Shown in pieces: positions 12,635 to 55,106 of a DNA stretch of 64,000 bases. Below the pieces are notes generated by a model. It was not told the DNA's origin. It ran no database searches and saw only the letters and a list, made by a program, of their open reading frames with translations. The translations under genes and the position numbers were made by a program. How positions within the stretch are numbered: the stretch's first letter is position 1; each line of letters starts with the position of its first letter. Origin of the DNA: Niabella yanshanensis (GTDB taxonomy: Bacteria > Bacteroidota > Bacteroidia > Chitinophagales > Chitinophagaceae); contig NZ_CP139960.1 of the NCBI RefSeq assembly GCF_034424215.1, positions 248,001-312,000 of the forward strand, written 5' to 3'.

Positions 12635-12648
12635 TGCAATCGATTGTA
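12635..12648. promoter_or_regulatory. CG-centred operator-like palindrome in a convergent gap
   Basis: TGCAATCGATTGTA has 13 of 14 bases in common with the ideal palindrome TGCAATCGATTGCA. It sits in the 408-base gap between two convergent genes (12295-12702), where no promoter is needed. Half-sites of the same kind crowd next to it: GCGATTG at 12571 and 12585 and CAATCAACGATTG at 12601-12613. Nothing else was seen in this gap apart from the two terminators. Confidence 0.5.
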
Positions 12649-12702
12649 TTTTTATTTTGTTTTTATTGTTATTTTGAATGATTAACCGGCATACATTGGA
12701 AG

Positions 12703-13722
12703 TTAAATAGATCTTATTGAGGACCGCCTGATAATAAGCTCAGAACGGATGATTATCCTGAGTGTTTTTTTAGTGTCTGGATATAGAAGTTGCTGAATCA
12801 GATTTTGGGCAGCGATTAAGCCGATGTCATACCCTGAATAGCTTACGGTAGATAGCTTCGGTTCTACTATTTCAGCGACGGGGTCATTGTTGAACCCAAC
12901 GAAAGCGATGTCTTCCGGTATTCTTATACCAGCACTTTTCAGGGCAATCATGCAGGCTACAGCGCCGTTATCGTTAGCTGCAACTATACCGTCAGGACGC
13001 TTTTTCATAGCTATTATTTGTTCAGCTGCGTTTAGCCCCGACTGATGATCTAATGTATTGAAAAGAAGATTTCTGTCGGTAACTTTCTTTCCGTACTTCA
13101 ACATCGCCTGCTTAAATCCTTCATATCGCTCCTTGTAGATGTGGAAGTTTGTATTTGCCGTCATATGTACCAGGTACTGGCATCCCTGTAAAATAAGGTG
13201 TTCTGTAGCTTTAAATGAAGCCGATACATTATCAATGGTAATTGCTGGATATTCGTAACTATCCGGAACACGGTCAAAAAAGATGACCGGTATATCCTTA
13301 TCAAAAAAGTTTTTGAAGTGGTTTACGTCGGGGCTGTTAAAGCAAAGCGATACAATAAGGCCATCTACCCTGTTCTGGAACATCGTCTTTACATTGATAA
13401 TCTCTTTACTGTGCAGTTCGTCAGATTGTGTTATGATTATATTATAACCATGTTGATTTGCAATCTTCTCAATTCCCGATATGGCTGAAGACATAAAATG
13501 ACTTGCCAAACGGGGAAGTATGACGCCGATGATATGTGTTTTATTAGACCGCAGGCTCCTGGCAAACGGGTTACCCTGGTATCCCATTGCATCGGCAGCT
13601 TCAGCAACTTTTTTTATTGTTCTGGAATTGACCCGTGGGTCGTTTTTCAGCGCCCGGCTTACAGTAGCGGGAGACAGGCCGAGCAGGTCTGCAATATCGT
13701 AAATCGTAATTGCCTTGTTCAT
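12703..13722 (-). CDS. LacI-family transcriptional regulator (transketolase/xylose side)
   Basis: A 339-residue regulator. Residues 5-24 form the LacI helix-turn-helix (TIYDIADLLGLSPATVSRAL), followed by the hinge region and a periplasmic-binding-protein-like sugar sensor domain from about residue 60 (THIIGVILPRL to the C-terminus). It has no signal and acts in the cytoplasm. It is divergent from the split transketolase genes, and a CG-centred palindrome (13800-13813) lies in the shared 182-base gap, so autoregulation and control of the transketolase are likely. Its recognition helix shares the ATVSRAL core with the second LacI paralogue at 28101-29156, so both may read the same operators. 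The inducer is probably xylose or a xylo-oligosaccharide; this is inference from context. Confidence 0.93.
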   Translation of the reverse strand: MNKAITIYDIADLLGLSPATVSRALKNDPRVNSRTIKKVAEAADAMGYQGNPFARSLRSNKTHIIGVILPRLASHFMSSAISGIEKIANQHGYNIIITQSDELHSKEIINVKTMFQNRVDGLIVSLCFNSPDVNHFKNFFDKDIPVIFFDRVPDSYEYPAITIDNVSASFKATEHLILQGCQYLVHMTANTNFHIYKERYEGFKQAMLKYGKKVTDRNLLFNTLDHQSGLNAAEQIIAMKKRPDGIVAANDNGAVACMIALKSAGIRIPEDIAFVGFNNDPVAEIVEPKLSTVSYSGYDIGLIAAQNLIQQLLYPDTKKTLRIIIRSELIIRRSSIRSI

Positions 13723-13799
13723 GCAAGTAAAGTAAAAAAAATGTCGCCGGCAATATAGGGCTCAATCGGAAGAATAGAAAGATTTCTTAGCAAAATAAA

Positions 13800-13813
13800 T
13801 GCAACCGATTTCA
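13800..13813. promoter_or_regulatory. Candidate LacI-type operator before the transketolase genes
   Basis: TGCAACCGATTTCA matches the CG-centred motif found at eight other sites here. It would overlap the -33 region of the rightward promoter at 13832-13839, which fits repression. Confidence 0.55.
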
Positions 13814-13831
13814 TTTTTGATTATTTATACA

Positions 13832-13839
13832 TATTTTTG
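13832..13839 (+). promoter_or_regulatory. Candidate -7 element of the transketolase/xylose isomerase unit
   Basis: TATTTTTG matches TAnnTTTG, 66 bases before the ATG at 13905. A -33 element at the usual spacing is only weakly present and falls inside the operator-like palindrome. Confidence 0.4.
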
Positions 13840-13904
13840 TCCGTAGCAATACTGCTTTAGTCAAATCCTGGTCGGATCTATTAAATTTTTTAACCAATTT
13901 TCAA

Positions 13905-14756
13905 ATGAGTAGAGAACTTTCAATTGCCGGGTTAGAAGATCTGGCAACCCAGGTAAGGCGTGATATTGTACGCATGGTTCATGGCTGTCAGTCTGGCCAT
14001 CCGGGCGGATCGCTGGGGTGCACAGACTTTTTGGTAGCCCTTTATTTTAAAATAATGAATCACGATACATCTTTCAGTATGGAGGGCGTAAATGAAGATT
14101 TATTCTTTCTGTCCAACGGGCATATATCGCCGCTATTATACGCAGTGCTCGCCCGTAGCGGTTATTTTGATCCTGCAGAGCTCAGCACATTCAGAAAGAT
14201 TAATTCAAGGTTGCAGGGACATCCCACTACGCATGAAGGATTGCCTGGTATACGAATGTCGTCCGGTTCATTAGGTCAGGGTCTTTCAGTGGCCATAGGA
14301 GCTGCGATTACAAAAAAAAGAAGAAATGAAACCAGCCTGGTTTTTTCATTACATGGGGATGGTGAGCTGCAGGAGGGCCAGATCTGGGAGGCGGCTCTTT
14401 TTGCTCCTGCCAAAAAGATAGATAACCTGGTGGTTACCATTGATGTGAACGGACAGCAAATAGATGGTTCTACCAACGATGTATTGTCGCTGGGCGATTT
14501 AAGGGCCAAATGGATGGCCTTTGGATGGGAGGTAATTGAGCTGGAGGGAAATAATATGAAGGAAATAGTAGAAGCACTAACCTTTGCAAAGAGCAGGACT
14601 TTCAGGGGTAAGCCTATTGTTATTTTAATGCATACAAATATGGGACATGGCGTAAGCTTTATGACGGGGTCACATAAATGGCATGGCATTGCGCCCAACG
14701 ATGAGCAGCTTAACATGGCGCTGTCTGAACTTTCCTCAACCCTGTCAGACTATTAA
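13905..14756 (+). CDS. Transketolase, N-terminal (TPP-binding) subunit
   Basis: One half of a split transketolase, which moves two-carbon units between pentose and other sugar phosphates in the non-oxidative pentose phosphate pathway. The 283 residues carry the thiamine-pyrophosphate motif beginning GDGELQEGQ (Gly151-Asp152-Gly153) and ending at Asn182, plus the GHPGGSLGC block (31-39). There is no signal peptide. The C-terminal subunit follows after 33 bases, so the two are translated together. In the context of xylose isomerase downstream, the enzyme would carry xylulose 5-phosphate into central metabolism. The palindrome before it suggests sugar-controlled expression, so this is probably a pathway-dedicated copy besides a housekeeping enzyme elsewhere (inference). 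Confidence 0.95.
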   Translation: MSRELSIAGLEDLATQVRRDIVRMVHGCQSGHPGGSLGCTDFLVALYFKIMNHDTSFSMEGVNEDLFFLSNGHISPLLYAVLARSGYFDPAELSTFRKINSRLQGHPTTHEGLPGIRMSSGSLGQGLSVAIGAAITKKRRNETSLVFSLHGDGELQEGQIWEAALFAPAKKIDNLVVTIDVNGQQIDGSTNDVLSLGDLRAKWMAFGWEVIELEGNNMKEIVEALTFAKSRTFRGKPIVILMHTNMGHGVSFMTGSHKWHGIAPNDEQLNMALSELSSTLSDY

Positions 14757-14789
14757 GATCCTACTACCCAATAATTTAAATAGCTTATA

Positions 14790-15743
14790 ATGACTAAATA
14801 TACATTTACAGAAAAGAAAGATACCCGGTCTGGTTTTGGCGCCGGTTTAGTGGAAGCAGCTAGAAGAAATGATAAAGTGGTGGCGCTTTGTGCCGACCTG
14901 ATTGGTTCTCTTAAAATGGAGGCCTTTATTAAAGAATTCCCCGGAAGATTTACACAGGTGGGAATTGCAGAAGCCAATATGATGGGTATTGCAGCCGGTA
15001 TGTCTATTGGAGGTGAAATACCTTTTACCGGAACCTTTGCCAATTTTTCCACAGGCAGGGTTTATGACCAGATCAGGCAAAGTATTGCCTACAGTGGGAA
15101 GAATGTAAAAATATGCGCTTCACACGCCGGGCTCACATTGGGAGAAGACGGTGCTACGCACCAGATCCTCGAAGATATAGGCATGATGAAAATGTTACCC
15201 GGAATGACTGTGATTAATCCTTGTGATTATAATCAGACGAAGGCTGCAACAATAGCTATTGCTGATTTTCAAGGGCCTGTTTACCTTAGGTTTGGCCGCC
15301 CGGTAGTACCGATCTTCACAGGGGAAGATCAGGTTTTTGAAATAGGTAAAGCGTGGATGGTAAACGAAGGGGCAGATGTAAGCATATTTGCTACCGGGCA
15401 TTTGGTTTGGGAAGCCATACAAGCCGCTGAACAACTAGAGGAAATGGGTATTAAAGCCGAGGTGGTGAACATCCATACTATCAAACCTTTGGATGAATTG
15501 GCGGTTCTTAAATCTGTTGCTAAAACCAGGTGCGTGGTTAGTGCGGAAGAGCACAACAGGATTGGCGGTTTGGGAGATAGCATTGCTCAATTACTGATCA
15601 AACAGGATCCTGTTCCACAGGAGTTTGTAGCTACCGACGATACTTTTGGAGAAAGCGGCAAACCTGCGGAGCTGATGGAAAAATATGGCCTCAATGCTGC
15701 CAGTATTGTAAAGGCCGCTCAAAGAGCGATGCAGCGTAAATAA
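14790..15743 (+). CDS. Transketolase, C-terminal (pyrimidine-binding and regulatory) subunit
   Basis: The second half of the split transketolase (317 residues). It has the transketolase pyrimidine-binding domain (about 5-170, with QVGIAEANMMGIAAGMS containing the Glu that activates the TPP ring) and the transketolase C-terminal domain (about 190-310, VSAEEHNRIGGLGDS). Similar halves occur in 1-deoxyxylulose-5-phosphate synthase, but the split form and the upstream subunit point to transketolase. It starts 33 bases after the N-terminal subunit and ends just before a strong terminator, so the two genes form their own transcript. Confidence 0.95.
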   Translation: MTKYTFTEKKDTRSGFGAGLVEAARRNDKVVALCADLIGSLKMEAFIKEFPGRFTQVGIAEANMMGIAAGMSIGGEIPFTGTFANFSTGRVYDQIRQSIAYSGKNVKICASHAGLTLGEDGATHQILEDIGMMKMLPGMTVINPCDYNQTKAATIAIADFQGPVYLRFGRPVVPIFTGEDQVFEIGKAWMVNEGADVSIFATGHLVWEAIQAAEQLEEMGIKAEVVNIHTIKPLDELAVLKSVAKTRCVVSAEEHNRIGGLGDSIAQLLIKQDPVPQEFVATDDTFGESGKPAELMEKYGLNAASIVKAAQRAMQRK

Positions 15744-15766
15744 TAGTTGATAAAATAGGAGAATTG

Positions 15767-15802
15767 AATAGATTAAGGTCTAAGCCCTTTAATCTATTTT
15801 TT
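15767..15802 (+). terminator. Intrinsic terminator after the transketolase genes
   Basis: A stem of about 11 bp (ATAGATTAAGG pairing with CCTTTAATCTAT, one bulged base) is followed by a run of T's, 24 bases past the stop codon. Confidence 0.7.
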
Positions 15803-15955
15803 AAAACTTTTCGGTCTGTGCATCTTTATTACGGCTAAAGGCAAATTTGTGCAACAGGGAAGTAAAGTTAACTTATGGAGATAGGAACGGCCTGGCCTTT
15901 TTGATAAAACGATTTTGCTATTCAATATTTAGAACTTAAAATATAAATTTCAATT

Positions 15956-17284
15956 ATGAGCGTATTATTAGGCGATCAGGAGTACTTTAAAGGTATTCCC
16001 CAAATACAATATGAGGGTCTGGAAAGCGATAACCCATTAGCTTTCCGGTGGTATGACGCCAACAGGGTAGTGGCGGGAAAAACATTAAAAGAGCATTTTC
16101 GTTTTGCCTGTGCCTACTGGCATTCGTTCTGCAATGATGGTAACGATCCTTTTGGCCCGGGAACCCATGTGTTTGGATGGAACAGCAAAGCTGATGCGGT
16201 AGCAAGGGCGAAAGACAAGATGGATGCTGCTTTTGAGTTTATCACTAAAATGAACCTGCCGTTTTATTGTTTTCATGATATAGACCTGGTGGATTATGGA
16301 ACGGATGTAAACGAGAATGATAAAAGATTACAGGCTGTAGTAGATTATGCCAAACAGAAGCAGGCCGATAGTGGTGTAAAATTATTATGGGGTACTGCCA
16401 ACGTATTCTCTAATCCGCGTTATATGAACGGGGCTTCTACCAATCCTGATTTTCAGGTTTTGTCGCATGCAGCTGCCCAGGTAAAAGCGGCCATTGATGC
16501 CACTATAGAACTGGGTGGGGACGGTTATGTTTTCTGGGGTGGAAGAGAAGGCTATATGACCTTGCTCAATACCGATATGAAAAGGGAGAAGGAGCATTTT
16601 GCGCGTTTCCTGCATACAGCCAAAGATTATGCACGTAAAAATGGTTTTAAAGGAACTTTCCTGATCGAGCCGAAACCCATGGAGCCTACCAAGCACCAGT
16701 ACGATTATGATTGCGAAACCGTAATCGGCTTCTTGCGCCAGTGGGACTTATTAGGCGATTTTAAGATCAATATAGAAGTAAATCATGCCACCCTTGCAGG
16801 ACATACGTTCCAGCACGAGCTGCAGGTGTCAGCTGATGCAGGTGTATTGGGATCTTTGGATGCCAACCGGGGGGATTACCAGAATGGCTGGGATACCGAT
16901 CAGTTTCCCAACAATTTAAATGAATTAACGGAAGCGATGTTGATCTTCCTGGAAGCAGGCGGTTTGCAGGGTGGCGGAATTAATTTTGATGCGAAGATCC
17001 GTCGCGCGTCAACGGATCCTGCTGATTTGTTCTATGCGCATATTGGCGGTATGGATACATTTGCCAGGGCCTTGATCACGGCCGATAAGATCCTGTCCAA
17101 TTCTGATTACCGTAAATTAAAGCAGGAGCGTTATGCTTCCTTTGATGGGGGTAAAGGAAAGGCTTTCGAGCAGGGTCAATTAACATTAGAAGATCTTCGT
17201 GCTTACGCTATTGAAACGGGTGAGCCTGCTGTAACAAGTGGCAAACAGGAGTACCTGGAGAATATTATTAACCGGTTTATATAG
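15956..17284 (+). CDS. xylA: Xylose isomerase
   Basis: Converts D-xylose to D-xylulose with two divalent metal ions, in the cytoplasm. The 442-residue length is that of the long (group II) enzymes. Visible family motifs: [10 protein letters not shown] with the catalytic His, [23 protein letters not shown] with the metal-binding Glu, [34 protein letters not shown] and [10 protein letters not shown]. There is no signal peptide. It lies 212 bases after the transketolase pair, behind a terminator, so it likely has its own promoter; the gap holds a weaker motif copy (ATAAAACGATTTTG at 15904-15917). No xylulokinase gene follows or occurs in this window, so the next pathway step must be encoded elsewhere. 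Confidence 0.98.
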
Positions 17285-17291
17285 TTTTTTT

Positions 17292-17390: not shown

Positions 17391-19325
17391 TTAGTCTGCA
17401 TCCGTTCTAAACGGAGCAGCAGGCAGTCCCTCCTTATTAAATAGGTTAGGGTTTACAGGGTTATCGGCCCAGGCATAACGAACATATTTGGGGTCGGTAA
17501 TTTCTTCTGACGAAACTATAATACGATTTCCATCGATAACTGCTTTCGCCCAAACAAATTTCTTATCGGCTCCTGCAATGGCAAATTCTGAAACGGGTTC
17601 TCCATCATGGGTAATAAGCCCGCCACCTGTATTAGAGAAGGTAAGCATTATTTTATTGCCGTCCTTTACGGATGATTGCAGGGTCGGTCCAGTATATACA
17701 ATATCTTTTTTATAAGCCATCTTTTCTGCTGCCAGCGCCAGTCTTTCCCCCACTTCTTTTTTACGATCAGGATGAATATCGTTCCACTCTCCCAAATCAA
17801 TAGTTACTGCCATGGCAGTATTGGGAACTGTTAATGATCTCGCCTGAGCTTCGCGAAACATCGCCCAACCCGATTCTCCCGGCACATAACTGTAATCCAT
17901 AAAACCGGGTAGCTGCACAAACAGGAAAGGAGCGTCCGGTAGTTGCCATTGATTACGCCAGTCTTTAATCATTGCAGGTTGTATTTGGGCATACTCTTGC
18001 GGTTTGCCTGTATTACTTTCTCCCTGGTACCACGCGAACCCTTTAACAGAGAAAGGGATGACAGGCGCCAACATTGCGTTGAAGATAGCGGCAGGCTGGC
18101 TGTTGGCAACAATGCTTCCGCCACTGCCACCCCTGCCACGAAGGGGTGTGAAAACCTGGCCTACCTTATATTTCCAGTAACCGGTTAGTTCAACGGTATC
18201 GTTACCTGCTATTAACTGGTAAGGTTTATCTGGTACGAAACCTCCTTTGCCGCCGTTATTAGTTACCCGAACTACCAGAACATTTTTTCCCTCCCTGAGC
18301 AAGCCACCGGCAACAGGATAACGTCGTTGGGGGTACATATAGGATGTGGCGCCTATTCTGACCCCATTCAGGTAGCATTCGTCTGCGTCAACAATTCTAC
18401 CTAAAAACATTTTTGCAGGCTTGCCGGTCATAGAAGCAGGTATGTCCAGTTCCTTGCGAAACCATATTATACCATCCAGGTTTTTAACACCCTGGTCTTC
18501 CCAATATCCGGGGACAGCCATGTTGCGCCAACCTTTGGGCTGATAGGATAGATCGTACCATTTTTCGTCCTGCCCTTTATCTGTCGGCCGTTTAGCCAAC
18601 AAGCCTCCGTTATTGTTACCCGGCTTTCTTCGTAAATTATTTAGATAGACCGTATCCTTATTTTTGGTTATGATGCTAAGCTGTCCGGGAAAATTAGCAA
18701 AGCCTTTTTCACTGGTCCATGCCTCAATAGGAGTGCCACCCCAGGTAGCATTAATAATTCCAACAGGTACATTGTGAGACGCGGCGATCTTCTCAGCAAA
18801 GAAATAAGCTACTGCAGAGAAATCCATAACATTGGCAGGGTTAACATCCTTCCAGGAACCACCCGGTAAATCTGCCTGGGGTTGCACCATACTGGTTACG
18901 TTAGGTATTTTAAATTGCCTGATATTGGGATTGCCGGCCGTCAAAATTTCATTAGCGTAAATAATATCATGTTGGCGCATCATATGCTCCATATTCGATT
19001 GTCCTGAAAATAGCCATACTTCGCCCACCAGGATATGATTCAGTATAATTTTATTTTTGCCGGATATTTCCATCCTGTAAGGTCCTCCCGAGGGGGTAGA
19101 TGCCAGCTGTATAGTCCACTTTCCTGAATGATCGGTAGTTGCCCGGTAGGTTTTATGATTGAATCGAACGGTAACTTTTTCCCGGGTTGATGCCCATCCC
19201 CAAATGTTTATCTTCGTATTACGCTGTAAAACCATGCTATCCCTGATGATGCGGGGAAGCTTCACCTGGGATAGGATTGGGACAGATATCAATAAGAATA
19301 AGCCGCCTAACAAAAATCTAAACAT
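17391..19325 (-). CDS. Sialate O-acetylesterase-like SGNH carbohydrate esterase (probable xylan acetylesterase)
   Basis: A secreted 644-residue esterase (signal peptide MFRFLLGGLFLLISVPILSQ). The SGNH nucleophile motif FSGQSNMEH (Ser110) and the C-terminal Asp/His pair in WNDIHPD (Asp516, His518) are intact. A beta-sandwich inserted at about residues 245-395 divides the catalytic domain, as in many sialate O-acetylesterase-like proteins. The annotation name comes from the family; sialic acid is not likely here, because the gene is the last of a xylan operon. Removal of acetyl groups from xylo-oligosaccharides in the periplasm is the more probable job (inference). It follows the GH43 gene by 87 bases and ends the leftward operon. 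Confidence 0.9.
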   Translation of the reverse strand: MFRFLLGGLFLLISVPILSQVKLPRIIRDSMVLQRNTKINIWGWASTREKVTVRFNHKTYRATTDHSGKWTIQLASTPSGGPYRMEISGKNKIILNHILVGEVWLFSGQSNMEHMMRQHDIIYANEILTAGNPNIRQFKIPNVTSMVQPQADLPGGSWKDVNPANVMDFSAVAYFFAEKIAASHNVPVGIINATWGGTPIEAWTSEKGFANFPGQLSIITKNKDTVYLNNLRRKPGNNNGGLLAKRPTDKGQDEKWYDLSYQPKGWRNMAVPGYWEDQGVKNLDGIIWFRKELDIPASMTGKPAKMFLGRIVDADECYLNGVRIGATSYMYPQRRYPVAGGLLREGKNVLVVRVTNNGGKGGFVPDKPYQLIAGNDTVELTGYWKYKVGQVFTPLRGRGGSGGSIVANSQPAAIFNAMLAPVIPFSVKGFAWYQGESNTGKPQEYAQIQPAMIKDWRNQWQLPDAPFLFVQLPGFMDYSYVPGESGWAMFREAQARSLTVPNTAMAVTIDLGEWNDIHPDRKKEVGERLALAAEKMAYKKDIVYTGPTLQSSVKDGNKIMLTFSNTGGGLITHDGEPVSEFAIAGADKKFVWAKAVIDGNRIIVSSEEITDPKYVRYAWADNPVNPNLFNKEGLPAAPFRTDAD

Positions 19326-19412
19326 CTAACTGTTATTTGAATAAGTTTTTCAAACCCCGGCACCCCGGGCAGGTAAAATAGTGCCACCAAAGAAATTACC
19401 GATTACCTGTTT

Positions 19413-20465
19413 CTATACCAAAATTTTTAAATCCTGGTAAGGATCTAAGGTTTTGATGTAACCATTTTCGTCGTGTTCAATTTTGGCAACTTTAATGCTG
19501 CGCAAATGGGTAACTCCCTTGCTTAAACTGCTGTCGTGATAGAAGAGATACCACTCGCTTTTATATTCGGCAATTGAATGATGGGAAGTCCATCCTACTA
19601 CGGGATTTAATATCCGTCCTGCATAGGTGAACGGTCCGTAGGGATTGTCGCCAATGGCATAACAAATGTAATGGGTATCACCAGTAGAGTAGGAGAAGTA
19701 ATATTTCCCCTGGTATTTGTGTAGCCAGGATGCCTCGAAAAAACGCCGGTCATTATCGCCCTGCAATAAGGGGTTGCCGGCCTCATCCACTATTAGAACA
19801 TCCTTAGCGGGCTCTGCAAATTCGAGCAGATCATCTGTAAGCCGGGCCACTTTGGCGCATAACGCAGGCTCGTTATGAGCAGGCAAATGTGCAAACGGGC
19901 TTTCGGGTTCTGCATCATTAAAGCTGCCGGTACGCCAGCGCTGTAGCTGTCCGCCCCAGATGCCGCCAAAATACATATAGTAGTTTCCATCATCGTCCTT
20001 ATATACTGCGGGATCAATCGAAAAGCTATCTTTAATAGCCTGGGGCTTTGGTATAAAAGGGCCTGTTGGCGTGTCGGAAATAGCTACGCCTATTTTAAAA
20101 ATGCGGTCATATCCTTTTGCCGGAAAGAACAGGTAATACCTGCCATCTTTTTCCTGGGCGTCGGGCGCCCACATTTGCTTTTCAGCCCAGGGCACATCAT
20201 TGACATGAAGGGCAACCCCGTTGTCTACGGCATCGGCATCAGGATGATCCATCGATATCACATGGTAATCTTCCATGGCAAAGTGGCTTCCCAGGTCATC
20301 AAAAGCATCTCCCGCATTTACATCATGTGAAGGGTAAATATAGATCTTCCCGTTAAATACATGAGCAGAGGGATCGGCTGTATAAATATGAGAAACCAAA
20401 GGACTTGAAACAGCTTTCCTATTGAGTTCGTCAAAGTTGATATGTTGTATACTTTCTTCAGGCAT
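19413..20465 (-). CDS. GH43 beta-xylosidase / alpha-L-arabinofuranosidase (cytoplasmic)
   Basis: A 350-residue five-bladed propeller hydrolase. The three family carboxylates are in place: Asp31 (YTADPSAHV, base), Asp151 (FSIDPAVY) and Glu244 (FFEASWLH, acid). There is no signal peptide, unlike its neighbours, so it acts in the cytoplasm on imported short xylo-oligosaccharides, releasing xylose or arabinose. The sequence resembles the single-domain GH43 branch that lacks the C-terminal jelly roll. It sits directly after the sugar symporter gene (78-base gap), a natural pairing of import and intracellular hydrolysis. The exact sugar released cannot be told from sequence alone. Confidence 0.93.
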   Translation of the reverse strand: MPEESIQHINFDELNRKAVSSPLVSHIYTADPSAHVFNGKIYIYPSHDVNAGDAFDDLGSHFAMEDYHVISMDHPDADAVDNGVALHVNDVPWAEKQMWAPDAQEKDGRYYLFFPAKGYDRIFKIGVAISDTPTGPFIPKPQAIKDSFSIDPAVYKDDDGNYYMYFGGIWGGQLQRWRTGSFNDAEPESPFAHLPAHNEPALCAKVARLTDDLLEFAEPAKDVLIVDEAGNPLLQGDNDRRFFEASWLHKYQGKYYFSYSTGDTHYICYAIGDNPYGPFTYAGRILNPVVGWTSHHSIAEYKSEWYLFYHDSSLSKGVTHLRSIKVAKIEHDENGYIKTLDPYQDLKILV

Positions 20466-20520
20466 AGTGATGAGTAATGAGTGATGAGTAGTGAATGGTG
20501 AATAGTTAATAGGGAATAGA
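20466..20520. repeat. Short imperfect direct repeats between GH43 and symporter genes
   Basis: The gap is made of degenerate copies of a 7-8 base unit of the type TGATGAGTAATGAG / GAATGGTGAATAG. It could be slippage-prone spacer DNA; no function is apparent. Confidence 0.5.
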
Positions 20521-20543
20521 GAGATCTTAAGCTATAACAGATG

Positions 20544-21995: not shown

Positions 21996-22052
21996 AAGAT
22001 TAAAATTTGAATGTTGATAATGAAAGTCAGATTATATCAGTTCTTTAATGGA

Positions 22053-23186: not shown

Positions 23187-23200
23187 TTTTTTTATTAAAG

Positions 23201-25792: not shown

Positions 25793-25877
25793 GTTTTATT
25801 TTTTCCTCTATTGAAGCGGTGTCAAAGCAGTATGTATTTGTAGTTTTTTTGAATGATTCAATGGCTTTAGCTGTTTT

Positions 25878-29200: not shown

Positions 29201-29214
29201 TGCAATCGGTTGCT
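29201..29214. promoter_or_regulatory. Candidate operator upstream of the lacI-GH67 operon
   Basis: TGCAATCGGTTGCT is nearly symmetric (GCAA-TCGG-TTGC) and lies 45 bases upstream of the regulator's start. On the minus strand a degenerate -7 element (TATCTTTA, 29187-29180) follows, so binding would block the leftward promoter. Confidence 0.6.
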
Positions 29215-29446
29215 TTATTTGTTTTTTATATCTTAATTTAGATATCGAATTGTACTTCTCAAACAAAATTTGTTTTGAAAATACGGATGGAACTGGGCTG
29301 AAATAGCTGATAAATCTGGTATTTACGTATAATCTGTGCTTGTTTATAAAGAATTACTATTGGGTATAATCGTCTGAATGCTTGCTGTATTGATGTAAAT
29401 GAACCTGTACAAATACCCCGGTTTTCTTCAATTTGATATCTAATAA

Positions 29447-29460
29447 TGCAATCGATTTAT
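29447..29460. promoter_or_regulatory. Candidate operator just before the rightward SusC gene
   Basis: TGCAATCGATTTAT keeps the left half-site and CG centre of the motif and lies 23 bases upstream of the SusC start. The rest of the 326-base divergent gap (29157-29482) shows no gene. Confidence 0.5.
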
Positions 29461-32683: not shown

Positions 32684-32694
32684 ATCTACTACAA

Positions 32695-34801: not shown

Positions 34802-34815
34802 TACAATCGATTGTA
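34802..34815. promoter_or_regulatory. Candidate operator 3 upstream of the xus operon (perfect palindrome)
   Basis: TACAATCGATTGTA is a perfect 14-base palindrome. It precedes a possible promoter with TTTG at 34819-34822 and a -7-like TATAATTG at 34845-34852 (22-base spacer). Confidence 0.6.
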
Positions 34816-34852
34816 TTTTTTGTTAAAATGTCTTAACTTAGCGGTATAATTG

Positions 34853-38291: not shown

Positions 38292-38303
38292 AAGTACTGG
38301 AAT

Positions 38304-40199: not shown

Positions 40200-40207
40200 A
40201 AAAAGAA

Positions 40208-43075: not shown

Positions 43076-43168
43076 TAGGTAAAATAAATGGAAATGGAGT
43101 AAAATGAACCTTTTTCTTTTCATAATGAACGGAATTGTGTGAATTTTCAAACAATAAAAATTTAACAG

Positions 43169-44956: not shown

Positions 44957-44987
44957 TTTTTTGCTTAAAACTTTTAAAAAACAGAAG

Positions 44988-45968: not shown

Positions 45969-45980
45969 AAAAGTATTGAA

Positions 45981-47669: not shown

Positions 47670-47718
47670 ACGATCGTTATCTAGCATTAAACAGTACTTA
47701 CTACTTTTAACTTGTTTG

Positions 47719-47757
47719 GAAACCTCCACCCTCTGTAGCTGGGGCGGTGGAGGTTTC
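47719..47757 (+). terminator. Stable hairpin after the xus-type operon
   Basis: A perfect 12-bp stem GAAACCTCCACC / GGTGGAGGTTTC with a 15-base loop lies 49 bases past the stop; only weakly T-rich sequence follows, so it may be a terminator or an mRNA-end stabiliser. Confidence 0.6.
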
Positions 47758-47790
47758 TATTAAAACCTATCTGCTAAAAATTATCACCAA

Positions 47791-48528
47791 ATGGGGAAGC
47801 GAGTTATACGTGCATTATTTTTTTTGCTGCCACTATTTTCTAAAGGTCAGTCCTTCCTTAATGATCAGTTGTCCCCAAGCATCGTGCCGCATAAAGTTGA
47901 AAAAGCATACTTGAGTTATATCAGGGATGGTGCAGCTTTTTTCAACGGCCCTGTATATACCGAGTACGGGCATTTATATGCCGAAGGAACTCCGTATTTC
48001 AGGAATGCAAATATCACCGAAGGAAAAGTTGTATTTGACGGCCTCTTGCATGAGGGAAGGTTTTTGATTTTTGATGTATTACAGCAGAAGCTGGTAACAA
48101 AAACACTTTCGGGTGGTGAGCTCTTTGAAGTGTCAATTCCATCAGTTACCGCATTTGAAATTGGGGACGTCCGTTTTGTTAAACTGAACATTTCGGCCAA
48201 GTCGGATATGTTACCTGGCTTTTATGAAGTACTGTTTAAAGGTTCAAAAATTCAGCTACTCTGCAAGCAGCAAAAGGAGTTAGTTGAGGAGATGATAGGA
48301 ACAAGTTTAAAAAAGTCTTTGCTGGACAAAGAAAAATATTACGTTCAATATAATGGAGATTACTATGCCATTACTAACCGGAGGAGTTTGTATAAGGCTT
48401 TTCCTGCTGCTCGGGATGAATTGAAGAAAGTAGCTCGTAGCAGCAATCTGAATTTTAAAACAGATCTGCGTACTGCTCTGATCGAAACCGTAAAGCATCT
48501 CAACGATTCATCAATTTCTCAATTATAA
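47791..48528 (+). CDS. Secreted protein of unknown function
   Basis: A 245-residue protein with a short signal peptide (VIRALFFLLPLFSKGQ, cleavage near residue 20) and no lipobox. No recognised domain. It contains a mixed beta-rich middle (EGTPYFRNANITEGKVVFDG, about 65-100) and a Lys-rich C-terminal helical part (about 165-240, KYYVQYNGDYYAITNRRSLYKAF). It is the first of four closely packed genes; the TonB receptor starts 2 bases after its stop, so the two are translationally linked. A role tied to that receptor is likely. Confidence 0.7.
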   Translation: MGKRVIRALFFLLPLFSKGQSFLNDQLSPSIVPHKVEKAYLSYIRDGAAFFNGPVYTEYGHLYAEGTPYFRNANITEGKVVFDGLLHEGRFLIFDVLQQKLVTKTLSGGELFEVSIPSVTAFEIGDVRFVKLNISAKSDMLPGFYEVLFKGSKIQLLCKQQKELVEEMIGTSLKKSLLDKEKYYVQYNGDYYAITNRRSLYKAFPAARDELKKVARSSNLNFKTDLRTALIETVKHLNDSSISQL

Positions 48529-48530
48529 TT

Positions 48531-51299
48531 TTGAAAACTAGAATTAGGCAAATTCTTACGATGCTTGTTTTTCTGTTGGCTTGTAGAAGCATTGTAGCTC
48601 AGCATCCCCCTCATTACCCTGCTATTAGCGGCGCATTCAAACAAATGAAGTTAGCGCAGTTTTTCTTCGAAATAGAAAAACAAAGTGGTTATAAATTTTT
48701 TTTTGACCAAAAAAATCTGGATACTACTTTAGTCAATATTGAAGTGCAATCTATGTCACTAGACGTATTGCTTAACAAAGTTTTTTCTGATACTGATTTG
48801 AGATTCGCTATAGATTCCGATAAGAATGTTTTTATAACAAAAGGTTTTTTAGTGCAAACCCATTTACCCGTATCTTTCTATGATGAGCGATCGGAAGTCT
48901 CATCCACCCTGATCAAAACGGATAAGATACCGGGTGCCGTTGCCAACTCAAAACTAACGAATGATAAAGTTCATATTATAGGGGTGGGGGCACCGGGGCA
49001 GAATCCAGGGATGTTCACATTAACGGGCTATGTGCGCCACGAACAAAATGGAGCGCCTGTTAGCGGAGCCTCTTTGTTTGTAGAAAATAGCTCTATTAAT
49101 GCAATAGCTGATTATCAGGGCTTCTTCTCAATAATACTTCCTTCCGGTAATAATGTACTAAGTATTCAAAGCATCGGAATGGAGGATGTACGTTTGAACT
49201 TGAACATGATGGGAGATGGGAGATTGATCGTTCCTATGCAAACCAAAATAATGAGCCTCAAGAATGTTGTGGTATCAGCACAAAAGATGAATAACTTAAG
49301 AGTAGCTCAATTAGGTGTTCAGAAGTTAGATATTAAAACTATTAAACAGGTACCTACCGTTTTTGGTGAGGCTGATATTTTGCGCGTGTTATTAACCACG
49401 CCCGGTGTTAAAACGGTTGGAGAGGCGAGCACAGGATTGAATGTGAGAGGCGGTTCAACTGATCAAAATCTCATCTTGTTTAACGAGGCAAATATTTACA
49501 ACCCCTCTCATTTCTTTGGAATGTTTTCTGCGTTCAATCCTGAGGTAGTAAAAGATGTAGAGTTATTTAAGGGCAGTATTCCGGCAAGACATGGTGGTAG
49601 GTTGGCGTCGGTAGTTAATATCAACAGCAGATCCGGGAATAAGAAAAAATTTGAAGGCGCTGCAGGGATTGGATTACTCACCAGTCGATTGGAAATTGAA
49701 GGACCTGTGGTAAAAGACAAATCATCCTTTATTATTGCAGGACGGACTACTTATGCAGATTGGTTATTAAAGCAATTGCCGGAAGAGTACAAAAATAGCA
49801 AGGCCTCATTTTACGATTTGAATTTAGTTTTTGATCACGAGTTCAATGAGAAGAATAGCGTTCACATAACAGGATATTTGAGCAAAGACCGCTTTAATTT
49901 AAATAGCGACACTTTTTACCATTACAAAAACCAGAACATTTCAATAAAATGGAAACATACATTTAATAGTCGCCTGCATTCTTTCTTAACCATTGGTAGA
50001 GATGGTTACGATTATAGTATTGAAAGCGATTTGAATCCGGTTAATGGTTACCAGCTTAATTTTGATATTGGCCAGACTTATCTCCGCAATCATTATAACT
50101 ACATGCTTAACAGTAAGCATAATCTTGAGTTCGGTTTGAATTCGAACTATCATAAATTACATTCCGGAAATTATAGGCCAATAGGTTCGCAGTCTTTAGT
50201 TAAACCAGTTACAATACCGGCAGAGCAGGCCCTTGAAACCGCATTGTATATAAGCGAGAATTATAAGATTACTCCTAAACTTAGCCTGGATGCGGGTTTG
50301 CGTTACTCAATTTACGCGTACTTGGGTCCCTACTCAGTTAATAATTATCCCGAAGGGGTACCCAAACAGGTTGACAATATTTTGGGGACAACAAAGTATG
50401 GAGATAATAAGGTAATCAATACCTACCAGGGACCAGAATTCCGAATTGGTCTGCGCCAGCTTATTACACCATCATTTTCATTTAAAGCCGGTTATAACAA
50501 TTTAAGGCAGTATATACATATGTTGTCGAACACAACTGCGATGGCACCAACCGACATCTGGAAATTAAGTGATCCTAATATAAATCCACAATCGGGAGAT
50601 CAGTTTTCACTGGGCCTGTATAAAAATTTAAAATCAAATACTATAGAAATATCATTGGAAGGATATTACAAACGCATTAAAGATTATCTCGATTTTAAAA
50701 GTGGTGCCGTGCTAGTACTTAACCCTCACATCGAAACTGATGTTTTAAAAACAAGGGGAAAAGCCTATGGTTTAGAATTACTTTTGAAAAAGTCTACCGG
50801 CAAGTTGAATGGTTGGGTTAGTTATACCTACAGCCGCATACTATTGAAGGCAGACGACCCGGATGCAGGTGAAATTATCAATAATGGCGCTTTTTATCCA
50901 GCAAATTATGATAAACCTCACGATGTGACATTTATTGGTAATTACCAGATCTCTCATAGATTCAGTATTTCTCTCAATACCAATTATAGTACAGGAAGGC
51001 CCATTACATTACCGATAGGTCGCTTCTATTATGATGGAGGAGTCAGAACTTTGTATGCCGATCGTAATGCCTATAGAATTCCGGATTACTTTAGAACCGA
51101 CTTTTCTATGAACATCGAGGGAAATCACAAAGTTCATCAAAAAACACACAATTCCTGGACGATTGGTGTTTATAATTTAACCGGAAGAAAGAACCCCTTC
51201 TCGGTATATTATGTTTCTCAGGGAGGTGCAATAAATGGCTATAAGCTGTCTATTTTTGGAAGTGCGATCCCCTTCGTAAATTTTAATATTAGGTTTTAA
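48531..51299 (+). CDS. TonB-dependent receptor with STN and carboxypeptidase-like domains (TTG start)
   Basis: A 922-residue outer-membrane receptor, not of the SusC class. In order: signal peptide (about 1-23), an STN domain (about 40-112, FFFEIEKQSGYKFFFDQKNL), a linker, a carboxypeptidase-like domain (about 165-245), a plug (about 265-370, with LNVRGGSTDQNLILFNEA) and a barrel ending VNFNIRF. The only sensible start is the TTG at 48531, two bases after the previous stop. STN domains usually receive or send signals across the periplasm to FecR-type anti-sigma factors, but no sigma/anti-sigma pair is present in this window. It is followed by a DUF4249 lipoprotein. Substrate unknown. Confidence 0.92.
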   Translation: MKTRIRQILTMLVFLLACRSIVAQHPPHYPAISGAFKQMKLAQFFFEIEKQSGYKFFFDQKNLDTTLVNIEVQSMSLDVLLNKVFSDTDLRFAIDSDKNVFITKGFLVQTHLPVSFYDERSEVSSTLIKTDKIPGAVANSKLTNDKVHIIGVGAPGQNPGMFTLTGYVRHEQNGAPVSGASLFVENSSINAIADYQGFFSIILPSGNNVLSIQSIGMEDVRLNLNMMGDGRLIVPMQTKIMSLKNVVVSAQKMNNLRVAQLGVQKLDIKTIKQVPTVFGEADILRVLLTTPGVKTVGEASTGLNVRGGSTDQNLILFNEANIYNPSHFFGMFSAFNPEVVKDVELFKGSIPARHGGRLASVVNINSRSGNKKKFEGAAGIGLLTSRLEIEGPVVKDKSSFIIAGRTTYADWLLKQLPEEYKNSKASFYDLNLVFDHEFNEKNSVHITGYLSKDRFNLNSDTFYHYKNQNISIKWKHTFNSRLHSFLTIGRDGYDYSIESDLNPVNGYQLNFDIGQTYLRNHYNYMLNSKHNLEFGLNSNYHKLHSGNYRPIGSQSLVKPVTIPAEQALETALYISENYKITPKLSLDAGLRYSIYAYLGPYSVNNYPEGVPKQVDNILGTTKYGDNKVINTYQGPEFRIGLRQLITPSFSFKAGYNNLRQYIHMLSNTTAMAPTDIWKLSDPNINPQSGDQFSLGLYKNLKSNTIEISLEGYYKRIKDYLDFKSGAVLVLNPHIETDVLKTRGKAYGLELLLKKSTGKLNGWVSYTYSRILLKADDPDAGEIINNGAFYPANYDKPHDVTFIGNYQISHRFSISLNTNYSTGRPITLPIGRFYYDGGVRTLYADRNAYRIPDYFRTDFSMNIEGNHKVHQKTHNSWTIGVYNLTGRKNPFSVYYVSQGGAINGYKLSIFGSAIPFVNFNIRF

Positions 51300-51341
51300 C
51301 AGTACTTTTCTTACACCAAGTGCATAACAAAATCATATGCG

Positions 51342-52520
51342 ATGAGTAGAATGAAAATGATATGGGTGATGATATTTATTTCAGTAGTATTAATCTGCTG
51401 TAGGGAAAAATATTTTGCTGATTACGAAATGCCGGCATCAGGCTTTCTGGTGGTTAACGGATTCATAAACGGAGGCGGAGAGCCAACGGAAATCAGGCTA
51501 TCGAGGTCGAATAAACTTACTGAAACTCCCGCTGAAGTGATGGAGACTGGGGCAACAGTTTTGATTGAAAGTGATGCGGATGACCGATATCCATTGATAG
51601 AAACGTCCCCCGGCGTTTACTCTTATGGGGCATTGGATGTAAATCCCTCTCGAAAATATCGTTTGTTTATTAAAGCCAGGGGAAAAGAATATATTTCAGA
51701 GTTCTCCGGTAAATTATCTACTCCAGATATTGACAGTGTTTCCTGGAAACAAAATAATAACGGTGTTCAGTTTTATATTCATTCACATGATGAATCTAAC
51801 AACACCCGATATTATCAGTGGAAATTTGAAGAGACCTGGGAAATTAATTCACCATTTTTAAGTGCACTTGAGTATAACTATGATTCTAATAACAAGCTAA
51901 TCGGCGTAAAGTATAAGTTTGACAATAGGATGGCAGACACTACGATGCAAAGATGCTGGGCAAAAAACAGCTCTCAGGTTTTGATTGTAGGATCTACCGA
52001 AAAGCTTAGCAATGATGTTATTTACCTGCCGCTCTATTTTGTGGGAGCCGAATCTGAAAAAATGAGCGTTGCTTACAGCATTCTTACAAAGCAGTATGCC
52101 CTTAGCCAACGGGCGTACAATTTCATTTTAACCATGAAGAAAAATACGGAACAACTGGGGTCTGTATTCGATCCGCAACCGTCTCAGCTAACAGGTAATA
52201 TAAAATGTATTACAAATCCTTCCGAAGTTGTAATAGGATTTGTTGAAGTAGTTGAGCAGAAGACAAAACGTATTTTTATCAACAGGAGGCAACTGAATAA
52301 CTGGAATTACACAAATACCTGTCAGACAACGGTGATAGATAATAAGCCCGATAGTATTGCGAAATATGCCGGCGGCGGCTTGGTTCCTTCCGTGGTGTAC
52401 TCTGAAGATATGATTACAGGCGAAATTATAGCCTTTAATGCTGCCCCTGGTCCTTGTGTGGATTGTAAATTACGGGGGGCTACAAACGTGAAACCTGAAT
52501 TCTGGCCTCAACAATTTTAG
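51342..52520 (+). CDS. DUF4249-type lipoprotein
   Basis: A 392-residue lipoprotein with lipobox (SVVLICC, about Cys20) and the DUF4249 pattern: an N-terminal Ig-like beta domain (about 30-130, MPASGFLVVNGFINGGGEP and SPGVYSYGALDVNPSRKYRL) and a C-terminal region ending with a Cys pair in GPCVDCKLRGATN. DUF4249 genes commonly sit beside STN-type TonB receptors in Bacteroidetes, where they may act as the surface partner much as SusD does for SusC; that role is inference. It lies 42 bases after the receptor and 20 bases before the MG2-like protein. Confidence 0.85.
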   Translation: MSRMKMIWVMIFISVVLICCREKYFADYEMPASGFLVVNGFINGGGEPTEIRLSRSNKLTETPAEVMETGATVLIESDADDRYPLIETSPGVYSYGALDVNPSRKYRLFIKARGKEYISEFSGKLSTPDIDSVSWKQNNNGVQFYIHSHDESNNTRYYQWKFEETWEINSPFLSALEYNYDSNNKLIGVKYKFDNRMADTTMQRCWAKNSSQVLIVGSTEKLSNDVIYLPLYFVGAESEKMSVAYSILTKQYALSQRAYNFILTMKKNTEQLGSVFDPQPSQLTGNIKCITNPSEVVIGFVEVVEQKTKRIFINRRQLNNWNYTNTCQTTVIDNKPDSIAKYAGGGLVPSVVYSEDMITGEIIAFNAAPGPCVDCKLRGATNVKPEFWPQQF

Positions 52521-52540
52521 TTTAGCTGAAACCATTGACA

Positions 52541-54910
52541 ATGTTTTTGACTGTTAAAAAAAATCTTTTACTTCTTGGTTGCCTGTGGTACTTCTGCATT
52601 ACACCAGGTAATGCGCAAACCAATTTCAGTACGCTTGAGCTGAATTTAAAGAAGTATACGCAGGATAACGTTGTTGAACGCTTATTTGTACATACGGATA
52701 AAGACTATTATCAAACCGGCGAGATTATATGGTTGAAAGTATACGATGTAGACGAGTTGAACAGACCTCTGGATTTTAGTAAGGTCGTTTATGCGGAGTT
52801 GCTGGATAAGGATAACAAGCCTGTACAACAAGTGAAAATTGCGATGAGTAATGCAATGGGGACAGGATATATTAATTTGCCGCAGATTATTGCCTCCGGT
52901 AACTTTTTATTAAGAGCTTACACCAGGTGGATGCAAAATTCAGGGCCAGTTTCCTTTTTCGAAAAACAGATTACTATTATAAACATGAACAACCTGCCCC
53001 GGTTAGCTAATGCTGACAGTGTGGCGAACAAACCATCCCTGGCATTTTTCCCCGAGGGAGGCCATATAGTTGCAGGGGTTCTGAATAACGTTGCCTACAA
53101 GTTGCTTTCATATACTGGAAGCATGGATTTTATCGGGTATCTTACTGATGGGAAGGATACTGTGGCCAAATTGTTGCCGAATAAAGATGGGCTGGGAAAG
53201 TTTACGTTTACTCCTGCGCAAGGTCGATCCTATACGGTACATGCTGGTTCCAACAGTGAACAACACAGGACCTTCAAGCTGCCTCCAATTCATGACAAAG
53301 GCACGGCTATTCAGCTTTCCGATGAAAACGACAAGTTTATTTTGAAAGGCGAAAATAATACTGCTGATCGGTTGTATCATTTACTTGTTCACTCAAGGGG
53401 CCATCTGACTTTTGGTGCAGATATCACTGTAAACCAGGGGAAATTTGGTTTCACTTTTAACAAATCGGAACTATCTGATGGTGTATCTGTCATAACCCTG
53501 TTTGACGAAAAGTTGACCCCCGTATGTGAACGTATCATTTTTAAGCATCCTGAGGTAAAGTTAGAGCTGGAATTAAAAACCAATCAACCAACTTTCGGTA
53601 AGCGCGAACTTGTAGAAGTGTCAATGGAAGCTAAAGATAATGGACTCCTTAATGATGCGGCTGCACTGTCGATGTCTGTTTTTAAACTTGATTCGTTACA
53701 AAGTGTACCCAAACAAAATATATATAATTATTTGTGGCTGGGGTCGGAGCTCAAAGGGTACATTCCGGATATAGACCAATATTTTTCTGGTGGGAAAAAT
53801 AGTGCAACAAACGACGTAGAATTATTATTGTTAACGCATGGTTGGCGCCGATTTGACTGGGATAAGGTTATTAGCAATAATTTCGAGCCGGAATACCTGC
53901 CTGAATTACGTGGGCATATTTTGACCGCCACAGTCATAGATAGTATGAGTGGGAGCCCGGTAAGCGGCGCAAAAACTTTTATTTCCGCTCCTTCATTTAT
54001 AACTATTTTTAAGCCGGCTTTGTCCGATTCTTTAGGAAGAATAAAGGCAGAATTCGCTAATTTTTACGGTAACCAGTCTGTGGTAGCCAAATCTAAAACG
54101 AATGGTACCACCATCAAAATTAACAATCCTTTCGCGGATGTTTTCGCCGACAGTTTTCTTCCGCATTTACAGCGACCGGTTAATTATCCTAATACTATAT
54201 TGAAGCAGAGTATAAATGCACAGGTACAAAGTGTTTATTATAATGATAGTTTGTATCAGTTTTATCTCCCTCCTTTTGCTGACTCGAGTGCTTTTTTTGG
54301 AAAGGCTGATTTCAACTATCAATTAGACAACTACACGCGCTTTAGAACGGTTGAAGAAGTATTGCGAGAATATGTTTCTTTAGTAAACGTGAGGCGTAGA
54401 CGGGATGAGGTTTCGCTTCAGGTGATCAATCCTGAACAAAAACAGATGCTTGCCAACCCACCATTGAACTTATTGGATGGTGTTCCTGTGTCGGATTTTT
54501 CTAAATTTTTTGAAGTTGATCCATTAACAATTAGAAGTCTGGATCTAGTCGCTAAACGATATGTTCTCGGGAGTGAGGTGTTCGACGCAATTCTGAGTTG
54601 GAAGAGCTATGACCCTGTGGTGGCTAAACATCCTGTGGAATCGGGAGAGACTAAGGTAGATTATGAGGGGCTTCTGTTGCATAGAAAATTTTATTCACCA
54701 ATATACAGCACCCTAAGCCATTCGGAAGCCAACCTTCCCGACTTTAGGAATCTGCTTCAGTGGCAGCCAGATATAAATTTAAAGGGTGGAGTAAGCTCAA
54801 AAGTTGCTTTCTACACTTCAGATCTAAAGGGACGATATGCGATTATTGTGCAGGGGATTTCTTCTAAAGGATTGCCTGTAATTAAAACTGGTCATTTCGA
54901 AGTTAAGTAA
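52541..54910 (+). CDS. Large secreted MG2-like/beta-sandwich protein of unknown function
   Basis: A 789-residue exported protein from the ATG at 52541 (an in-frame TTG at 52535 is less likely), with signal peptide NLLLLGCLWYFCITPGNAQ. Residues 35-125 resemble a macroglobulin-like MG2 domain (VHTDKDYYQTGEIIWLKVYD and YINLPQIIASGNFLLRAYTRW), followed by further beta-sandwich domains. Near residue 420 is the LLTHGWRRFDWDKV block seen in Bacteroidetes proteins annotated as carboxypeptidase-regulatory or TonB-plug-containing. No protease or hydrolase motif was found. It ends the four-gene unit starting at 47791. Confidence 0.78.
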   Translation: MFLTVKKNLLLLGCLWYFCITPGNAQTNFSTLELNLKKYTQDNVVERLFVHTDKDYYQTGEIIWLKVYDVDELNRPLDFSKVVYAELLDKDNKPVQQVKIAMSNAMGTGYINLPQIIASGNFLLRAYTRWMQNSGPVSFFEKQITIINMNNLPRLANADSVANKPSLAFFPEGGHIVAGVLNNVAYKLLSYTGSMDFIGYLTDGKDTVAKLLPNKDGLGKFTFTPAQGRSYTVHAGSNSEQHRTFKLPPIHDKGTAIQLSDENDKFILKGENNTADRLYHLLVHSRGHLTFGADITVNQGKFGFTFNKSELSDGVSVITLFDEKLTPVCERIIFKHPEVKLELELKTNQPTFGKRELVEVSMEAKDNGLLNDAAALSMSVFKLDSLQSVPKQNIYNYLWLGSELKGYIPDIDQYFSGGKNSATNDVELLLLTHGWRRFDWDKVISNNFEPEYLPELRGHILTATVIDSMSGSPVSGAKTFISAPSFITIFKPALSDSLGRIKAEFANFYGNQSVVAKSKTNGTTIKINNPFADVFADSFLPHLQRPVNYPNTILKQSINAQVQSVYYNDSLYQFYLPPFADSSAFFGKADFNYQLDNYTRFRTVEEVLREYVSLVNVRRRRDEVSLQVINPEQKQMLANPPLNLLDGVPVSDFSKFFEVDPLTIRSLDLVAKRYVLGSEVFDAILSWKSYDPVVAKHPVESGETKVDYEGLLLHRKFYSPIYSTLSHSEANLPDFRNLLQWQPDINLKGGVSSKVAFYTSDLKGRYAIIVQGISSKGLPVIKTGHFEVK

Positions 54911-54949
54911 CATAAAATGTGTGACGTATCCGACTTCCTGTAATCTCAA

Positions 54950-54963
54950 TGAAAACGATTGTA
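54950..54963. promoter_or_regulatory. Candidate operator 1 upstream of the GH30/esterase cluster
   Basis: TGAAAACGATTGTA fits TGnAAnCGnTTGTA. It lies in the 331-base gap 54911-55241, which has no gene. Confidence 0.48.
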
Positions 54964-55092
54964 TTTTGTCACTTTTGCACCGGCGCCGGCATTTGCAAAT
55001 TGTAAAATCAAAAAGCAGGGCTGACCTGCAAAACCCTTACTGATATTAGAAATTGAGGTTATATACTCGTTTAAACGAACCAAAAAAAATAA

Positions 55093-55106
55093 TGCAATCG
55101 ATATCA
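55093..55106. promoter_or_regulatory. Candidate operator 2 upstream of the GH30/esterase cluster
   Basis: TGCAATCGATATCA keeps the left half-site and CG centre. A TATAATTG sequence follows at 55139-55146, much as at the xus operon (34802 and 34845). Confidence 0.53.

Follow-up and report, generated by a model that had tools for sequence, protein, structure and literature searches.

Which regulator controls the arabinoxylan and xylose genes of a Niabella genome is the question raised by the stretch analyzed here (the window), 64,000 nucleotides corresponding to positions 248001-312000 of a 5.54-Mb single-contig genome. The genus and the family, Chitinophagaceae, were assigned from named relatives. 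A preliminary description reported nine 14-base palindromic sites in the window and attributed them to regulation by LacI-type proteins. All nine are present at the positions it gave, and the central CG is invariant across them. The palindrome is probably the operator of one of these proteins, LacI-2 (28101-29156, minus strand), which belongs to the LacI/GalR family and would repress an arabinoxylan and xylose regulon extending over about 100 kb. The same palindrome beside the same LacI-type gene in many relatives points to a sugar-released off-switch, in contrast to the usual membrane-spanning sensors.

The palindromic sites and their distribution in the genome

Eight of the nine sites lie upstream of a transcription unit, as described. 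The exception is TGCAATCGATTGTA (12635-12648), placed between the 3' ends of the genes for a hybrid two-component system (HTCS) protein and LacI-1. The site TGCAACCGATTTCA (13800-13813) lies between lacI-1 and the transketolase-xylose isomerase genes (tkt-tkt-xylA). TGCAATCGGTTGCT (29201-29214) lies between lacI-2 and susC1, and a second operator, TGCAATCGATTTAT (29447-29460), lies 22 bases ahead of the start codon, within what is presumed to be the susC1 leader. Three sites precede susC2: TGCAAACGATTTAA (34578-34591), which is weak and operator-like (E = 2 in the whole-genome profile scan), TGCAATCGGTTTTA (34672-34685), and TACAATCGATTGTA (34802-34815). The remaining two, TGAAAACGATTGTA (54950-54963) and TGCAATCGATATCA (55093-55106), precede the GH30/esterase unit. 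The assignment of TGCAATCGGTTTTA and TGAAAACGATTGTA is based on position and the profile scan. Thus several promoters carry two or three sites. Neighbouring sites are separated by 246, 94, 130, and 143 bp, and simple arithmetic reveals no obvious common helical period. A further operator-like site (28949-28962, score 15.3) is seen inside lacI-2, 252 bp from the site at 29201, and it has counterparts at a similar place in the gene in the loci L004 and L002 (at 10195).

Within three mismatches of TGCAATCGATTGCA, the window contains 10 matches: the nine sites and one at 48745. Dinucleotide shuffles expect 3.88 +/- 1.98 matches, and 10 were reached in none of 100. The match at 48745 is inside the open reading frame (ORF) of a TonB receptor; it was set aside as coding and is probably due to chance. 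When each site was scored by leave-one-out against 260,000 bases elsewhere in the genome (13 stretches), eight of the nine had no equally good match, while the weakest, 29447, had two. In the eight intergenic segments of the window (2,515 bases), nine positions have a matrix score of at least 15.5. Markov-1 resampling gave a mean of 0.011 and a maximum of 1 in 2000, a control that favours the nine sites because the matrix was built from them.

Loose matches to the pattern are common throughout the genome and prove little alone: with three mismatches, the plain pattern has 293 matches, and the reversed pattern 87. A profile trained on the nine sites in both orientations was run on the whole genome, with 150 of 6,660 first-look candidates scored, so that weak sites may be missed. 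It found 13 sites at E ≤ 0.1, eight of them training sites and five held-out. Eleven of the 13 fall between 260 and 359 kb. The segment from 220 to 392 kb (172 kb, ~3% of the genome) contains these 11, as well as 13 of 19 sites at E ≤ 1 and 15 of 30 at E ≤ 10. The motif is therefore not equally frequent elsewhere, which had been named as the observation that would speak against the preliminary description.

Three of the five held-out sites belong to the same arabinoxylan cluster, downstream of the window, and two are elsewhere. The best match in the genome is one of the three, 358291 (TGCAATCGATTGCA). It precedes a gene for a 717-aa protein without Pfam match (358439), and an HTCS gene (genome 360946) follows 354 bases further on. 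Behind the other two, 327230 and 355250, are a GH43-GH127 pair and the gene of an outer-membrane beta-barrel protein, the true start of which is uncertain. The proposal of one xylan and xylose regulon is supported by these facts, but the limits of the window are too narrow for it: the regulon continues for at least 46 kb past the window, to genome 358304. Outside this cluster, a weaker match at 227622 (E 0.39) is located between a sulfatase gene and a gene for a cNMP-binding protein.

LacI-2 and the conservation of the site

LacI-2 contains a LacI helix-turn-helix (HTH) domain (PF00356, E 2.4e-13) and a Peripla_BP_3 domain (PF13377, E 3e-28). Its nearest solved structures by sequence are CcpA and PurR (PDB), and it is 91% identical (best segment) to its counterpart in N. 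hibiscisoli. The hinge motif ARNL is present at the expected place, and its leucine could be the residue that enters the central CpG. The paralogue LacI-1 (12703-13722, minus strand; assigned by Pfam) is divergent, with 41-42% identity to LacI-2. It does not group within the LacI-2 clade in a tree of 88 rows, which was used for this grouping only and in which one row, L029_333_p, has a very long branch and represents a spurious frame. No match to LacI-1 above 48% identity was found in the 29 other relatives searched. Apart from lacI-2, 16 LacI-type genes of the genome were compared, and the palindrome lies upstream of lacI-1 alone. LacI-2, the conserved partner of the site, is the likely binder, and LacI-1 looks like a target of the regulon. 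The two paralogues mentioned in the preliminary description are thus both encoded but not equivalent. The LacI gene at genome 366074 has no upstream site. Back to back with it, behind the HTCS gene at 360946, lies a gene for a 356-aa protein (L010 12933-14003, genome 364933-366003) with a LacI-type sugar-binding domain and no Pfam LacI HTH at E ≤ 1e-4.

LacI-2 has a match at E ≤ 1e-60 in 89 of the 147 family genomes. Among the best 30 loci of this search, own locus included, 23 have the palindrome (score at least 13.5) within ~350 bases upstream of the LacI gene, compared with one of 30 for the reversed matrix. The exact palindrome TGCAAYCGRTTGCA, which is the family consensus, occurs 82 times in 44 of the 147 genomes, and its reversed control never. 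Of the 56 genomes with a LacI-2-type gene (E ≤ 1e-100), 37 carry it, versus 7 of the 91 others (Fisher p 5e-14). In the own genome, TGCAAYCGRTTGCA is fitted exactly only at 358291, and the sites in the window are looser. Gene order was compared in two sets of 20 loci, one with five further named loci. The order lacI-GH67-GH115-xylanase-GPH symporter-GH43, accompanied around the site by divergent susCD or xylA, is seen whole or in part in many genera, although a few loci show little of it. These facts support the earlier view of a CG-centred LacI-class operator with a LacI protein as its likely regulator, based on clustering, gene order, and upstream sites at LacI-2-type loci.

Tandem lacI genes recur in Chitinophagaceae, often beside GH67 (L047, L049, L053, L056, L057, L060, and others). 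In several relatives, each gene of the tandem is preceded by TGCAACCGATTGCA or a one-base variant. Such pairs could mean heterodimers or two inducers. A sister palindrome, TGCAAACGTTTGCA, is seen in several family genomes (G006, G106, G116, and others) and may mark another LacI subgroup. In a set of 25 loci from the phylum, two of them from the family, 12 have a position scoring at least 15.5 within ~4 kb and 13 do not, a count made without a control. These positions are beside the LacI gene in five loci from other families (L142-L145 and L148), several of the other positions are variant palindromes, and in Croceivirga (L003) TGCAATCGGTTGCA is located between lacI and GH67.

Within the genus, profile matches at E ≤ 0.1 are seen in 13 of 17 genomes, own included, and four have none. 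Dense clusters of sites are present in G442 and G435, taken to be N. hibiscisoli and N. defluvii. In G442, the sites precede tkt-tkt-xylA (two), GH30, GH43-GH127, and the unit of the 358439-type gene and HTCS, and four are in the gap between lacI-2 and susC2. In G435, they are found again in the lacI-2/susC2 gap (three) and at GH30, GH127, and the 358439-type gene. The site at 29201 has an equivalent in the LacI-susC gap in these two relatives and in other genera. The site at 34802 is identical before susC2 in both, and the site at 55093 is identical before GH30 at L210 10359.

Comparison with G442 also explains the exceptional site at 12635. There (L208), two operators 156 bp apart precede tkt without a LacI gene between them. 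Because window 12533-12629 aligns with L208 13516-13612 (74.5%), the stretch just before the first of these operators, the site at 12635 is most simply considered as the displaced upstream operator of the tkt-xylA promoter, split from its partner here by the LacI-1 gene. A small RNA at this site, suggested by a perfect -7 box on the minus strand and a hairpin terminator (fold z -2.95), was rejected: in L208 the counterpart stretch and operator are upstream of tkt, and the minus-strand site lacks such a -7 box. The strong minus-strand hairpin with a T tail is at 12542-12569, between the 3' end of lacI-1 and the site, and a similar stretch is seen before the L208 operator at ~13525-13552.

Promoter geometry and mode of control

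Promoters of Bacteroidota have been described with a -7 box, TAnnTTTG, and a weak -33 element (PMC6847099, PMC9723704). In F. johnsoniae the box spans -12 to -5, and the TTG signal at -33 is weak (PMC6847099). The position of the palindrome relative to such boxes was analyzed with 108 oriented intergenic sites from the own genome and relatives (matrix score at least 14.5), from which ORF-internal sites and repeats (site plus 25 bases) had been dropped. Within 70 bases, TAnnTT[TAC]G is found 44 times downstream and 8 times upstream; an earlier run with 78 sites gave 31 and 4. In 33 of the 108, the box is 16-21 nt downstream, against 3.9 on average and 12 at most in 1000 circular shifts, although the rows are related by descent and often represent two sides of one divergent site, which reduces the weight of the count since they are not 33 independent events.

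Four of the 33 are in the window: 13800, 29201, 34802, and 55093. Their boxes, identified by consensus match on the plus strand, are TATTTTTG of tkt-tkt-xylA (13832-13839, 18 nt downstream of the operator), TAATTTAG of susC1 (29234-29241), TAACTTAG of susC2 (34834-34841), and TATTTTAG of the GH30 unit (55128-55135). Because the F. johnsoniae box spans -12 to -5 (PMC6847099), operators with boxes at 16-21 nt would be placed at about -30 to -47. An operator at or against the -33 region is the geometry predicted for a repressor. The most frequent end positions of TTG in 170 site-free boxes are -21 and -20 from the TA (6.5% and 5.9%; other listed offsets 0-4.7%). The TTG of the operator ends at the same positions at offsets 18 and 17, which are also the commonest (20 of 44 boxes). 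Therefore, the operator TTG can itself be the -33 element at the commonest offsets, and it abuts this element at 20-21. A first reading of the spacing had leaned toward activation, and it was given up after the site-free promoters showed TTG mostly at the same distance.

Several observations weigh against LacI-2 repression through this geometry. The box is missing at that distance from 75 of the 108 oriented sites. The TTG signal at -33 is only weak in general promoters, and it was also weak when initially examined with 65 TAnnTTTG boxes from the own genome. Conservation of the downstream TTGCA half of the operator does not exceed that of the upstream half, and TTG is missing there from two of the four promoters in the window (13800 and 55093); the -33 role is therefore not general. 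At the promoters of lacI-2, GH43, the outer-membrane protein, and 358439, the nearest box is 8-13 nt away with one mismatch, which would put the operator between -33 and -7. Other sites are far upstream (34578, 34672, and 54950) or in the leader (29447).

The pairing of the regulator with the site is also imperfect. Seven of the 30 LacI-2-type loci have no site at the threshold. Among them is G022, of the same genus, where lacI-2 (69-70%), GH67, GH115, and susC follow one another in order but the profile finds no match at E ≤ 0.1; upstream of its lacI there is only TGTAACCGATTACA, with a low score. Conversely, the exact palindrome occurs in seven genomes that have no close LacI-2. The 72% paralogue of LacI-2 at 730952 has no upstream site, and the recognition helices do not differ enough between LacI-1 and LacI-2 to tell which protein binds. 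Two held-out sites are outside xylan genes. One, 1018306, precedes a TonB-receptor gene that has a response regulator upstream. The other, 4140670, falls at the 5' end of an ORF resembling GMC oxidoreductases; a GH20 gene is nearby, and 114 bases further upstream there is a weaker match (E 0.17).

How far do these observations favour other explanations? The sites lie in AT-rich flanks and loose matches are frequent genome-wide, but a chance or composition artefact of AT-rich intergenic DNA with CG-centred words is hardly credible, being contradicted by the shuffles, the resampling, the reversed-pattern controls, and the conservation. It is quite unlikely that the operator belongs mainly to LacI-1 or to the LacI protein at genome 366074, with LacI-2 only as a target. 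All three are LacI-family proteins with similar HTH, the promoter of LacI-1 itself has a site, and G435 (L215) retains LacI-like matches at the 366074-type position. However, the two Niabella relatives have sites although LacI-1 has no match above 48% identity in the 29 other relatives searched, the 366074 gene is not preceded by a site, and in other genera the site adjoins LacI-2-type genes.

The preferred distance to the -7 box would equally suit an activator that touches the polymerase, and a strong -33 element is evident for the phylum neither in the promoters analyzed here nor in one study (PMC6847099). An activating, or activating and repressing, LacI protein that is bound at about -37 to -41 and recruits RNA polymerase is nevertheless improbable: at offsets 17-18 the operator TTG would overlap the -33 element, and other sites are between -33 and -7 (offset 8-13) or in the leader. 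It is rather doubtful that the HTCS proteins control the units in practice, with the LacI sites only for fine-tuning or for the xylose genes. HTCS genes are present at window 8107-12294 (plus strand) and at 360946, the latter behind a site-bearing gene, and polysaccharide loci of Bacteroides have been described as HTCS-controlled (PMC3878776, PMC10766802). For susC1 and susC2, on the other hand, the palindrome is at the promoter itself.

If LacI-2 is the repressor, it would sit, presumably as a dimer, at the promoters of the transketolase-xylose isomerase genes, its own GH67 unit, the two susC units, and the GH30-esterases when no inducer is present. It would further occupy those of GH43-GH127, the outer-membrane protein, and the HTCS-adjacent gene. 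The site would cover or abut the -33 region in the four clearest promoters of the window and would be between -33 and -7 elsewhere, and bound LacI-2 could block RNA polymerase in either placement. It can be speculated that LacI-2 is released by xylose or a xylo- or glucuronoxylo-oligosaccharide imported through the SusCD and GPH transporters. Two or three sites per promoter might allow cooperative binding or looping. Since HTCS genes are present in the window and at 360946, induction by xylan may need both LacI release and HTCS activation. LacI regulation was earlier seen as a logic different from HTCS control. The LacI part of this view is supported, but the contrast was too strong, with one HTCS gene behind a site-bearing gene and another in the window; the two kinds of control may be layered.

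A wider scheme is put forward more tentatively. SusCD xylan uptake in many Chitinophagaceae and some other Bacteroidota could be under a soluble cytoplasmic LacI protein, with the TTGCA half of its operator serving as the -33 element at a class of promoters, and with the HTCS as a second layer only. If true, uptake would be gated by imported or cytoplasmic sugar and not by a sensor of periplasmic oligosaccharides.

Related systems and neighbouring genes

LacI-2 resembles CcpA and PurR, its closest solved structures, also in domain order. The cre and pur boxes are operators with a central CG. Unlike CcpA sites, 11 of the 13 sites here are in one catabolic region and not spread over central carbon genes. 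The LacI-type XylR and its 14-base CG-centred xyl-box, TGGTAGCGCTAACA, control xylose genes in both Xanthomonas and Caulobacter and, in the former, also xylan genes, with release by xylose (PMC10380989). The LacI-2 system appears to work like this regulon without being a member of it. A LacI-type regulator, a 14-base CG-centred operator, and xylan and xylose targets are shared, whereas XylR is proteobacterial and its xyl-box differs from the TGCAAYCGRTTGCA-like operator found here. The proteobacterial XylR systems are not known to have SusCD or the Bacteroidota -33/-7 promoter. LacI control of xylan genes is already known in Proteobacteria, and the new aspect here is the geometry between operator and -7 box.

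Most descriptions of how Bacteroidota polysaccharide loci are controlled concern HTCS, SusR-like, and extracytoplasmic function (ECF) systems; HTCS and ECF control in Bacteroides has been reviewed (PMC10766802). The HTCS-controlled Bacteroides loci have comparable SusCD and GH content, and this locus has an HTCS gene as well. Their control relies on a sensor kinase with AraC-type output and on direct-repeat motifs (PMC3878776). The XylR of Bacteroides (BT0791) is also a regulator of xylose utilisation in Bacteroidota, but it belongs to the NrtR family (PMC3878776). The xylan polysaccharide utilization loci of Gramella flava, also of Bacteroidota, share GH67, xylA, and a LacI-family gene; the lacI gene is named in a figure legend, and in the accessible part of that paper no operator appears and the regulator is listed, not studied (PMC5306329). 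According to one sentence of a 2025 paper, LacI-family regulators or HTCS control the beta-1,4-xylan systems of a Xanthomonas and two gut Bacteroidota (PMC12125979). A survey of LacI regulons includes one Bacteroides group, with uronate regulators in its accessible part (PMC4052901). No description of this operator, or of a LacI regulon over Bacteroidota SusCD xylan genes, was found in the literature searched, which leaves out most subscription papers. A LacI regulon over SusCD and xylose metabolism in many genera of one family would add a one-component logic based on cytoplasmic sugar. The operator, regulator, and promoter map are concrete and testable with one purified protein, and the system could be of use as a small inducible promoter in this phylum, whose promoters follow rules of their own.

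The genes of the proposed regulon in the window are arranged as follows. The transketolase N and C parts and xylose isomerase (13905-17284, plus strand) are in the same order after two operators in L208. Behind lacI-2, on the minus strand, are the GH67, GH115, xylanase-like, GPH symporter, GH43, and SASA esterase genes (17391-28094), an order largely kept in other genera; the xylanase-like gene has a partial match to NF041944, under its cut-off. On the plus strand, susC1-susD1 (29483-34515) is followed by susC2-susD2, susC3-susD3, and the genes for a DUF5627 protein, GH10, a TonB receptor, a DUF4249 protein, and proteins without Pfam match (35142-54910), and then by GH30 and a run of esterases (55242-63663).

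The HTCS gene at 8107-12294 is outside the proposed LacI regulon. It belongs to a neighbouring gene set adjoining the xylan region (1593-12294), together with a 1040-aa ORF, a weak match resembling a surface glycan-binding protein, and a GH88-like hydrolase. None of the nine palindromic sites is upstream of the genes of this set. A DDE_3 transposase gene is located within the arabinoxylan region, at L010 520-1560 (genome 352520-353560).

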